In this document: piece by piece, positions 35,101 to 39,948 of the stretch
Numbering within the stretch: position 1 is the stretch's first letter
How the letters are laid out: each line of letters begins with the position of its first letter
Source of the DNA: Paralichthys olivaceus
Taxonomy: Eukaryota > Chordata > Actinopteri > Pleuronectiformes > Paralichthyidae
Assembly: GCF_024713975.1 (NCBI RefSeq)
Contig: NC_091111.1
Location: 19,552,501 to 19,616,500 of the forward strand
Direction of reading: 5' to 3'
DNA length: 64,000 nucleotides
Notes under the pieces: generated by a model
Database searches by the model: none
The model's input: the letters and a program-made list of their open reading frames with translations, nothing else
Told to the model about the DNA's origin: nothing
Translations under genes and position numbers: made by a program

Positions 35101-37665
35101 TTTTATAAATATACATTTTTATATAATTTAGTATTTTGAAATGAACATACAGTTTCACTTTCACCAGTTTTCAGTCACTAGTGTTTTTAATAAAACACAA
35201 TCAGTAGTGCAGAGTAGTCGAGCTGCATCAAGCTTTTCTATACACTTGATATTATTGATGAGGGGAAAAAAACAAGGTGAGGTTTATCCTGCAACTTTAG
35301 AACCGTTACCTCATTTCATATTTCTTGTCGATGACGAAGAGCTGGATACAGAAAGCGTTGGGTTTCTGTGACAACTCTTCTCCAGCTGAACATGTTCGCT
35401 TGTGCTGAAAGGAACAGAGAATTGTTTTTTTTTTAAATATACAAATTGTAGAAATTAAAGAAATATATGAATGAATAAACGCAAAAGAGAAAGGATTAGA
35501 AATACGCAAACATAAATACAGAAATATAAATACACCGATTTAAATGTATAGAAAGTACAGAAAACCCTCATCACACAATTATATCTACTCAGATTTAATT
35601 TATATTGATGCTAAATTTCTTCCATGTTTGAAGTCACCTGTTGTAAAGTGGAGGTTTGACTTTGTCTCAGTTCCTCGTCATCTTCTCCCGGGTCAGTCGA
35701 CACAGCCGGTTCACAGAGTTCAGTTTGTTGTGGTTTGTACAAATCATTGAAGTCACTGAGCTCAAAGCCGCGACGCAGCTTTTTCAAATCGACATCAGCA
35801 GTGACGCAGATGAAACCAACAGTGACGCCAGCAACCTGGGAAACAAAGGAAACAAAGGCCTTTAAACACTTTCTGATTGTATGAGATTCAACAGTTTCCA
35901 ATTTAGAGCAGAGATTATTTCATGCAAAAATGTTTAAGAAAATAATTTTGAATAAATCTTGAGAAAGTTTAAATATCTGGAACATATTTAAAAAACATGG
36001 TGAGACTGTCTGTTCTGAGCGCTGAACATTTTCAGAGCAAAATGCTTCAGATGTGTGGACACAATATGTTCAGTGAGAGCATGTGAGAGCACCGGCCAAG
36101 TATCAGCTCGTATCTGCCATATGCTGCCGTGAACACCTCCCAACTGGGAGGGAAGATCTGTCGTCTCCCGGACCCCAGCAGGGTTTCTGACAGAGCATCA
36201 GAGATCTGCCTTCACATCATGTTTAGGATCAGTAACGACAAATCATTTACCAAAAAAAACAAAAACTCTTTCCTAAAAGGAAATCTGTGAGTGCAAGAGT
36301 CTCAAATCTGGAACAAACCTCACAAACAGCTGAGTGATTATCTTCATTCTGAGCCTCAATGAGTTCTGCCAGGACGTACGGCTGATCCAAGAGTTTAGTG
36401 TACCGGTTAAATATGTGCATGATGTCGTCATGATCCTCCTCCCTGCAACACACAAGAGAAACGTTTTTATATCACAAAGAATCTGATTATTCTGTGAAAG
36501 GAATCAATGGTGCTGGACCCACAGAGCAGCAAAATGTTGCCTTCACTTTAGCAAGTTATTACGAAGTAGATGCAAATCAGACATTCTGAAAATTGTTCAT
36601 CGCAGTCACCTCTGAGCCTCTCATAAAACATGGGTTCAATTAAAGACATTACAGTTAAGTTTGATTTGTGAGCGTGGCCATTTGAAGGCAGAAGTTCACT
36701 GTGTTGATAGGAGGAATCGTCACCTGGCAGAGCGGATATGAAGTCTGGGACAGTGCTGCCATCTGTGGCAGATCAATGCTAAGCACCGAGGGCCGGGCTC
36801 CGTCAGGCGCTGCAGCCACTCGAACGTGTCTTTCAGTGCCGGCTCTACACAAACAGAAGTCACGAGGCTGAGTCTCATGAAATTCAAGTTAAAAGTTAGC
36901 AATGAATCTGAAGCAGCTCCTCACCTAGATCAATGATGTTCGGGGTGACCAGGCAGATGTATTCAAGCTCTGGGACGGCATTAAACACAGCTCTGTAAAA
37001 GATGCAGGACAAGAGAAGTGAGTAGATCTTAGTTTAAATATCTCATCTATAATCATGTGGTGGCTTCAAACCTTATCCTGGTCTACCTCATTATCTTCTT
37101 CACACTGGCTGTCGCAAAGTTCTTCTGTGCCACGAAAAGGTGGAGGAAGAGTGTGTTCAGAGGCTGCAGACAGAATCCAAACAGCAGATAGAGAAAGAGA
37201 ATTACACTTAAGAGCAACTCTACATCAGCAGATCGTTTTTGTCCAGATTCATGATTTGTACTCACCGTGCAGTTTTCAGCGCTGAAGTGTTTCTGCAGGA
37301 AACGTTGCCAGTGAGCCTGATCCACCAAACCTCCAACAGGGTGATCCAGGAAGGAAGCGTGGGCCAAGATGTCATCTTTTCTGTTGGTCACGGTCACAGC
37401 CAGGTTGGCTTTTTCTCTGGATGGGACAAGAGAGCAGATAAGACAGAAACTAGAATCAAGAAATTCTGTGTAGACGACATTAAACTCAGATCTAATAAAA
37501 TGATTGTTTCTCTTACAGCAGTGGAATAATATTCACTCTCCCAGAGATCGTCAGAGCACTGGAGCTGATGAGGCTGTTGATCCCCTGAGCGTCGGCAGAT
37601 TCACTCCTCACGAGGACAGCCTCCACCTCCTCCCCGCTGTCTGAGGTCATGGTCCTCATCTTCAT
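20030..37665 (-). CDS. cfap61: Cilia- and flagella-associated protein 61
   Basis: Twenty-four coding exons join in phase into 3381 nt, 1126 residues plus stop, with no frameshift; human CFAP61 is about 1237. The family is a component of the calmodulin- and spoke-associated complex at the base of radial spoke 3 in motile cilia and sperm flagella. The N-terminal half is the CFAP61-specific domain. The C-terminal half resembles FAD/NAD(P)-binding oxidoreductases: VVVGASDTG at about residues 592-600, DYLILCTG in exon 17 and [14 protein letters not shown] in exon 19. In-frame ATGs lie at 37665, 37659 and 37650, preceded by an in-frame stop, so the start is within five codons. The promoter is shared with crnkl1 and carries an X-box. 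Unusually, exons 1 and 2 are duplicated upstream. Exon coordinates are in the four segment entries. Confidence 0.95.
20560..20760. promoter_or_regulatory. Candidate conserved element just upstream in cfap61 intron
   Basis: Balanced, repeat-free sequence in the intron between exons 22 and 23, with TCGATTATTTTAACGG, CATAAACAGATTAGG and GGACAATAGACG (SOX-type) blocks. It is the insm1-proximal intronic island. A C11 run at about 20477-20487 flanks it. Confidence 0.3.
23440..24040. other. cfap61 intron, nothing seen
   Basis: AT-rich intronic DNA between exons 19 and 20 with no motif or repeat I could support. Confidence 0.5.
24345..25939. other. cfap61 intron 18, AT-rich, no gene
   Basis: AT-rich, mostly unstructured intronic sequence. 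The short open frame at 25164-25430 has no splice context and does not resemble a protein known to me. Confidence 0.5.
25940..26260. promoter_or_regulatory. Candidate conserved intronic element (cfap61 intron 18)
   Basis: A dense set of homeodomain-type and octamer-like sites in about 320 bases: AATTTGCATTTATTAATGG, GACTAATTAGTCTG (palindromic), CAGATTAATTTTGC, GATATGATAATGG, and CTAATTAGCTGCTAATTATAC. Motif density is far above the flanking intron, and the balanced sequence stands out from AT-rich surroundings. Best read as an enhancer of a neighbouring developmental gene, most likely insm1. Not proven. Confidence 0.45.
26286..26308. repeat. (TG)n microsatellite
   Basis: TG repeat of about 12 units, 20 bases downstream of the cfap61 exon 18 donor. 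Confidence 0.9.
26880..27080. repeat. Possible interspersed repeat
   Basis: It contains GCATATACTGTAAATAAAGATGG and CAACATGGCGGCTCC, phrases I associate with a dispersed teleost repeat. No ends or target-site duplications could be defined. Low confidence. Confidence 0.3.
28255..28350. repeat. Possible interspersed repeat fragment
   Basis: TTTCAATAGGGCCTTCGCAC followed by GGGCCCTAATAATAACAATAA resembles the end of a dispersed teleost element with an (AATAAC)n-like tail. Boundaries are uncertain. Confidence 0.3.
28400..29070. promoter_or_regulatory. Candidate conserved intronic block (cfap61 intron 15)
   Basis: A 670-base block, GC-richer than the rest of the 2.5-kb intron and with no splice-flanked coding frame. 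Motifs include GCATTAAGGCCAATTATTGG, TTGTTCTGTTATCAGCC, CGCCATTAGTTCAGCGG, ACTCATTAGTGACAGC and GTGGCTAATTAAAGGG. A G/T-rich patch (28608-28640) splits it. Its length and texture make it the largest enhancer-like island in the window. Inference. Confidence 0.4.
30880..31070. promoter_or_regulatory. Candidate conserved intronic element (cfap61 intron 14)
   Basis: Balanced sequence with CTCTTATCTGACACGG (GATA-like), GCCGCGTTACCAAGGCG, and the inverted pair CGTGCACGGAGCAATGCCGTGCACG (two GTGCACG arms around a short loop). The GTTACCAAGGCG stretch resembles an RFX half-site pair. Enhancer-like; untested. Confidence 0.3.
31827..35404 (-). other. cfap61: cfap61 exons 8-14 (middle)
   Basis: Exons: 35404-35310, 34572-34533 (only 40 nt), 34279-34143, 33942-33816, 33302-33225, 33022-32816 and 31955-31827. 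Donors of exons 11 and 13 are the weaker GTCAGT and GTTTGT. Recognisable segments are [43 protein letters not shown] and [20 protein letters not shown], the last leading into the dinucleotide-binding half. Confidence 0.9.
32105..32345. promoter_or_regulatory. Candidate conserved intronic element (cfap61 intron 13)
   Basis: Contains GCTGATTATGACTGGAG, GCCATTATTCTATTTGCACC, GGTAATTAGCAGAGG and CTTATTATGG within 240 bases, without simple repeats. Not coding. Enhancer-like by texture only. Confidence 0.3.
35638..37665 (-). other. cfap61: cfap61 exons 1-7 (N-terminal domain)
   Basis: Exons, high to low: 37665-37517, 37416-37266, 37163-37087, 36992-36925, 36844-36724, 36442-36319 and 35835-35638. 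Each is bounded by AG acceptor and GT donor on the minus strand, and phases are consistent (2, 0, 2, 1, 2, 0, 0). Hallmark segments are EKANLAVT in exon 2, [12 protein letters not shown] in exon 3, [17 protein letters not shown] in exon 6 and [14 protein letters not shown] in exon 7, all close to the human protein as I recall it. Exon 7 ends in an acidic, less conserved linker. Confidence 0.92.
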
Positions 37666-37770
37666 TGGAATTGGTTACAAGAATACAAAAAATAAAATAA
37701 GGATTAGACCATTATTTAATATTTTAAAAACTAGCTTCACGTGCTACACTGTTCGGAGGCAGCTGCCTCA
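37240..37770 (-). repeat. Tandem duplication, inner copy (cfap61 exons 1-2)
   Basis: This is the expressed-looking copy. It aligns with 37785-37990 plus 39537-39770. Shared landmarks are TTCTCTTACAGCAG at the exon 1 donor, TGGATGGGACAAGAGAGCAG at the exon 2 acceptor, AAACTCAGATCTAA in the intron, and ACTAGCTTCACRTGCTA upstream of exon 1. It retains ATG codons and a full 151-nt exon 2. Confidence 0.85.
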
Positions 37771-39546: not shown

Positions 39547-39660
39547 AGCAGTTGAATGTTTTCACTCGTCAGAGCTCCGGAGCTGAGGAGGCTGTCGATC
39601 AACCTGAGACCCGCAGAGTGACTCCTCCTCGCGGCCACAGCCTCCACCTCCTCCCCGCCG
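39547..39660 (-). pseudogene. Duplicate cfap61 exon 1 (outer copy, no start codon)
   Basis: Its GGGGAGGAGGTGGAGGC core, AGCTCTGACG block and donor CTGCT|GTAAGAGAAAC match cfap61 exon 1 at 37517-37650. In the matching frame it reads GGEEVEAVAARRS on to a terminal IQLL, but an in-frame TGA lies upstream with no ATG between, so it cannot start the protein. It is the copy next to the shared promoter and X-box, so it is plausibly a 5' UTR exon of the live gene, spliced to exon 1 at 37665. Confidence 0.7.
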
Positions 39661-39948
39661 CCTGCTCCTCTCTGTGCTCGCCTTCACCGGAGATAAAACT
39701 CTTTTTAAATATTCGAAGACTCGGTGAACAACGGAACTAGCTTCACATGCTAACTCCAGTTTCTCTGTAACTGTCGCCGGCTGTTGCCATGGTAGCAGAA
39801 CGCTGCAGCAAGGGCTCATGGGTAACTCGCAAGGCCCCCTGGGAACTTTAATGGCGGCGCTCGCTGGCGGACGCAGACACGTCGTGGAAACGCTTTAAAC
39901 CGGCTCGTTGGAAACTTTCCTCCGCGCTCCGTTGAAGCCGTCGGCACC
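39661..39948. promoter_or_regulatory. Bidirectional promoter, cfap61 / crnkl1
   Basis: Divergent genes with under 300 bases between the outer cfap61 exon copy and the crnkl1 start codon. GC-richer than its flanks, no TATA box in the crnkl1 direction, an AATGGCGGC YY1-like site at 39850-39858, and the X-box. This is the layout of a TATA-less CpG promoter shared by a housekeeping gene and a ciliary gene. Confidence 0.6.
39783..39796 (-). promoter_or_regulatory. RFX X-box in shared cfap61/crnkl1 promoter
   Basis: On the minus strand the sequence is GCTACCATGGCAAC. It fits the X-box consensus RYYNYY-N(1-3)-RRNRAC at every position with a 2-base spacer, and is nearly palindromic. RFX factors activate genes of motile cilia through such sites close to the promoter. 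It lies about 120 bases upstream of the outer exon 1 copy in the cfap61 direction and 153 bases upstream of the crnkl1 ATG. Confidence 0.65.

Follow-up and report, generated by a model that had tools for sequence, protein, structure and literature searches.

In Paralichthys olivaceus a tandem duplication of cfap61 exons 1 and 2 leaves the promoter marks beside the copy that has lost its start codon

Introduction

Initial exons duplicated in tandem are on record, as are duplicated exons within untranslated regions; UGT1A and Drosophila hydra are examples (PMC9013439). In these systems homologous first exons stand one after another ahead of the exons they share, a likeness that extends to the locus considered here, the start of cfap61 in a 64-kb stretch of the Paralichthys olivaceus genome (GCF_024713975.1, contig NC_091111.1, positions 19,552,501 to 19,616,500; the whole stretch of 64,000 nucleotides is termed the window). 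The cfap61 locus differs from these examples: the copied block comprises two exons, a start codon is present in the inner first exon alone, and the promoter marks adjoin the copy that is probably dead. Such duplication is a known and ordinary kind of event; the twist in cfap61, and what makes the arrangement unusual, is that it is the probably dead copy that lies beside the promoter marks. Among the literature titles and abstract openings listed, none dealt with a duplication of cfap61 exons.

CFAP61 is a radial spoke 3 protein, and its gene lies head-to-head with crnkl1 in mammals. In this study, we examine the outer exon pair (1' and 2') and the inner pair (1 and 2) of the P. olivaceus gene by self comparison, domain and structure matches, splice-site scores and modelled transcripts. 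From the sequence, we consider it on balance probable that the outer pair is dead for coding, that the inner pair codes, and that the productive mRNA starts at or near inner exon 1. The locus would then offer a snapshot of one outcome of first-exon duplication, in which the copy distant from the promoter marks retains the coding role and decay hits the copy adjoining them.

Results and Discussion

The first two exons of cfap61 are duplicated in tandem

On the minus strand the gene spans about 37.7 to 20.0 kb of the window. Translated exons 1-2-3-4 match the CFAP61_N domain (PF16092) at 136 bits, above the Pfam cut-off of 27, and hand-picked exons from the remainder of the gene match PDB chain 8j07_d0 at 898.7 bits over residues 8-306, 386-596 and 688-1170, the residues between these three stretches not being covered by the picked exons. 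These two matches identify the gene as cfap61; the PDB chains are silent on the exon copies.

A sequence-only reading of the window had proposed a tandem duplication of exons 1 and 2, in the minus-strand order 1', 2', 1, 2, 3, and this is borne out by self comparison and a genome search: the copies are homologous, on the same strand, in a row and within one gene (Table 1). Exons 2' and 2 (37993-37802 versus 37505-37316, minus strand) align over 192 columns at 92.2% identity (E 4e-63), in agreement with the earlier estimate of about 90 percent over roughly 190 bases, and the alignment includes the acceptor together with about 90 bp of intron 1. Exons 1' and 1 (39691-39536 versus 37669-37506, minus strand) align over 169 columns at 72.8% with gaps counted (E 2e-21); a looser alignment has 88% of its ungapped columns identical and 28 gap columns. 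A search of the 588 Mb genome with 39760-39500 returned two scored candidates, namely the query's own position and that of inner exon 1 (76%, E 2.3e-17).

Table 1. Features of the cfap61 start region and of the rest of the gene, in window coordinates
Feature	Position	Strand	Basis
X-box-like (RFX) site GCTACCATGGCAAC, one mismatch from the pattern	39783..39796	- (reads on both strands)	motif search
CpG-rich promoter region between cfap61 and crnkl1	39600..40200	.	CpG observed/expected 0.86-1.41, 200-bp windows starting 39600-40000
17-mer upstream of 1', one mismatch versus 37745-37729	39735..39751	-	upstream alignment
Exon 1' core, donor kept, no ATG	39547..39656	-	self comparison, alignment, genome search
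Exon 2', 100 nt, acceptor kept	37803..37902	-	self comparison, splice scores
Inner 17-mer copy upstream of exon 1; TTTAAAA starts at 37728	37729..37745	-	upstream alignment
Exon 1 (inner), coding	37517..37665	-	relatives' alignment, domain score
Exon 2 (inner), 151 nt, full length, coding	37266..37416	-	relatives' alignment
Exon 3	37087..37163	-	relatives' alignment, splice scores, modelled chains
Rest of cfap61, exon 4 to stop codon	20030..36992	-	picked exons all open

Homology extends past the exons on both sides. Downstream it crosses the exon 2 donor into intron 2, and upstream it includes the paired 17-mers, with alignment scores that none of 500 and 2 of 1000 mononucleotide shuffles reached. 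The duplicated unit has no sharply defined edges: extended further, the upstream alignment runs to 39788/37767, within the X-box, and a portion of this inner upstream stretch also aligns weakly to intron 2, with a score reached by 43 of 1000 shuffles.

The sequence-only reading had cautioned against an assembly error, which could take the form of a retained haplotype or a false tandem copy. A copy error is unlikely because the copies have diverged, by 8% for 2'/2 and 24-27% for 1'/1, and carry private deletions; there is also the difference of 1.5 kb in intron 1, and the locus lies inside one of the 25 contigs of the assembly. We give the artefact almost no credence, and judged from these comparisons the duplication is real and probably fairly old. 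Mismatches number 17/143 in 1/1' and 13/190 in 2/2', a difference that is not significant (p 0.12). Counting indels as 6 and 1 gave p 0.02, in a rough test for which 6 is an undercount (the loose 1/1' alignment has 11 gap runs). Because the faster divergence of 1/1' is not significant, gene conversion of 2/2' is only a guess.

Intron 1' exceeds inner intron 1 by about 1.5 kb. This extra sequence (39500-38000) was tested as a mobile insertion, and for most of it no other copy turned up in the genome. A genome search that skipped very common words, so that its counts are lower bounds, found the query itself and at least 9 other places, all within query positions 210-391 (about 39291-39110) and at 71-97% identity, and comparison with the window gave only the self-match. 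The difference may reflect either an insertion in intron 1' or a deletion in inner intron 1. The segment 39110-39291 is itself a small interspersed repeat lying within intron 1', and portions of this repeat account for the matches at those other genome places. Rfam over 36000-42000 and ARAGORN over 36000-41000 each gave no matches.

The inner pair probably encodes the CFAP61 N-terminus and the outer pair has lost codons

The CFAP61_N score falls from 136 bits for 1-2-3-4 to 114.7 for 1'-2-3-4, 93.1 for 1-2'-3-4 and 71.8 for 1'-2'-3-4, a cost of 21 bits for replacing exon 1, 43 for exon 2 and 64 for both. Three PDB relatives were used for comparison, which we take to be mammalian, although the depositors label one CFAP20; the pairwise scores to these are 39-49 for inner exon 1 and 14-20 for 1'. 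In a hand alignment with one relative, six of the seven informative sites, at which 1 and 1' differ and the relative agrees with one of the two, favor exon 1 and one favors 1' (p 0.125). Taken together, the sequence comparisons show inner exon 1 to be closer to CFAP61 relatives than 1', and the outer pair is probably not translated.

Both first-exon donors read CTGCT/GTAAGAG (the slash marks the splice junction). As the sequence-only reading had stated, 1' retains its donor and has no ATG after an in-frame stop, its frame being open from the TGA at 39686-39684. Inner exon 1 has in-frame ATGs at 37665, 37659 and 37650, all after an in-frame TAA. The core of 1' is 9 nt shorter than that of exon 1 at 37635-37517 (110 versus 119 nt), and by hand alignment it has lost four codons and has one that exon 1 is without. 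In a UGT1A-type array each copy would have its own start codon, which 1' does not, and its own promoter; here the X-box-like site and CpG-rich sequence lie at 1', and a TATA-like site and the 17-mer at the inner copy.

Exon 2' is without 51 bp (17 codons, in frame) directly before its donor, the counterpart in exon 2 being 37316-37266. The earlier claim that 2' keeps its acceptor and ends in frame at a donor stands, but the donor was not gained: it is the ancestral one, moved to a CAG by the 51-bp loss. The resulting CAG/GTGAGT scores 12.3, and only one of 3913 minus-strand GTs reaches 12.2 or more; we take this strength as a by-product of the deletion and not as proof of use. The acceptors of 2' and of exon 2 both score 8.8.

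Six exon chains were modelled. The three with inner exon 1 all read the CFAP61 N-terminus, and all three with 1' but not exon 1 are without a CFAP61 N-terminal start: the first frame of 1'-2-3 and of 1'-2'-2-3 has 38 codons and does not belong to CFAP61, and in 1'-2'-3 the first ATG falls at the end of exon 3. By these models, inner exon 1 must be in the productive mRNA, either as the first exon or by way of an acceptor. They also bear on the suggestion that 2' is an alternative exon giving a form of CFAP61 minus 17 residues. Its phases fit, its CAG end joins exon 3 in frame and both its splice sites are strong, but 2' lies upstream of the only start-codon exon and can thus follow only 1', which is ATG-free. 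The 17 missing residues align gap-free in all three PDB relatives, with few identities among them (a W and the final CT are the only ones seen by eye), and four of the seven differences between 2' and 2 alter a residue, with no sign of constraint. An in-frame coding role for 2' is therefore very unlikely. Automatic gene models may nevertheless include 1' or 2' in the cfap61 protein, and annotation should be read with that in mind.

The start of the productive transcript

The sequence-only reading had noted that the X-box promoter adjoins 1' and not the ATG-bearing copy; this holds for the X-box-like site, and the CpG-rich region lies there as well. The X-box pattern used in the motif search is one that we presume to be standard, and the motif alone is weak evidence because the window has 19 matches with at most two mismatches versus 8.3 expected, palindromes being counted on both strands.

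These marks admit a model, the one put forward in the sequence-only reading, in which transcription starts from the X-box and CpG-rich promoter, 1' (with or without 2') serves as an untranslated leader, and exon 1 is internal, reached through an upstream acceptor. The retained donor of 1' fits this model. Of the junctions proposed earlier, 39547-37902 and 37803-37163 have their GT and AG in the sequence; 39547-37665 fails for want of an acceptor AG (ATTCCA/ATG). Three other candidate acceptors, at 37762, 37748 and 37659, would keep an ATG. They were scored with a matrix derived from 25 cfap61 and crnkl1 acceptors chosen by eye, whose own leave-one-out scores run from 1.3 to 14.4, and all three are weak: 37748 (0.8) and 37659 (-2.2, the 58th percentile of 8369 AGs) fall below all 25, and 37762 scores 1.9. 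Consensus frequencies that we assume to be representative give 2.6 for 37748, 1.6 for 37762 and 0.3 for 37659, whereas the lowest score among 13 cfap61 acceptors is 3.1. Splicing from the 2' donor to 37762 or 37748 would moreover leave introns of only about 40-54 nt. Because the 2' donor and the exon 2 acceptor are much stronger, outer transcripts are predicted to skip exon 1.

An inner start needs no acceptor, and no strong acceptor precedes the inner ATG; the duplicated unit, in addition, carries start-proximal sequence, and a TATA-like TTTAAAA precedes both first exons. On these grounds we slightly prefer an inner start to the leader model. Several observations nonetheless weigh against it, or against the coding assignment on which it builds. 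Exons 1 and 1' have equal numbers of identities with the relatives (13-15), because 1' reaches the relatives with gaps. Among the windows of 36800-40799 the CpG-rich promoter region lies at the outer copy and inner exon 1 has an observed/expected ratio of 0.46, no X-box-like match with at most two mismatches occurs from 34236 to 39782, and the TATA-like heptamer is common by chance. Exon 1' from 39745 together with 2' is ATG-free, as would be expected of a used leader, and 4.6% of dinucleotide shuffles are likewise; the point 39745 was chosen to exclude an ATG-TGA at 39748 just outside, and 1' from 39704 alone (30% of shuffles) and 2' alone (17%) are both unremarkable. Candidate 37762 scores above one of the 25 real acceptors, though it is weak. 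The AAG/ATG at 37659 follows a 69-nt AG-free tract with a pyrimidine fraction of 0.69, matched by 0.36% of the 8369 AGs and noticed after the fact. Of the three candidates only 37659 has such a tract; it is accompanied by a CTAAT that resembles what we take to be the branch motif, and an AAG ending is found at another cfap61 acceptor (21713). With these points counted, the leader model is a possibility to be taken seriously, if a doubtful one.

The sequence of events that we favor, with an inner start, would be as follows. A tandem duplication copied the start of cfap61, from sequence close below the X-box through exon 1, intron 1 and exon 2 into the first part of intron 2. Of the two resulting pairs, the inner would now encode the CFAP61 N-terminus and the outer would have decayed, 1' by loss of its ATG and some codons and 2' by loss of 17 codons. 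The productive mRNA may have its start at inner exon 1 or immediately before it, where the duplication would have brought a start region along, and the X-box element may act on this inner start from about 2.1 kb away. Equal binding of RFX2 to promoters and to enhancers has been reported (PMC5245798). By splice-site strength the outer promoter is predicted to give 1'-2'-2-3 transcripts, which would be unproductive or would provide a leader only. We regard as improbable a further account in which the very strong 2' donor is a decoy that captures transcripts of the promoter shared with crnkl1 into mRNAs without a CFAP61 start, CFAP61 coming only from a separate inner start; if true, a cilium-specific output would be split from a housekeeping promoter.

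Intron 1' also contains a second, weaker CpG stretch at 38500-38799 (observed/expected 0.78-0.80). The wider segment 38500-38900 is richer in GC and CpG and has a G-rich run, a CACGCCC (38847) and two donor-like sites (38765 and 38760, scoring 6.3 each). It is possibly another first exon or promoter.

Neighboring genes

The gene crnkl1 lies on the plus strand, where one frame matches Crooked neck-like protein 1 and another reaches 25 bits against the CRNKL1 HAT family, just below the cut-off of 27; its first exon, with an ATG at 39949 on the plus strand, is assigned on what we take to be the CRNKL1 N-terminus. Downstream of cfap61, a 505-aa open frame with C2H2 zinc fingers (16315-17832, minus strand) is presumably insm1, by assumed synteny. 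At 60602-60982 on the plus strand, a frame matches the alpha-macroglobulin TED domain at 69.9 bits.

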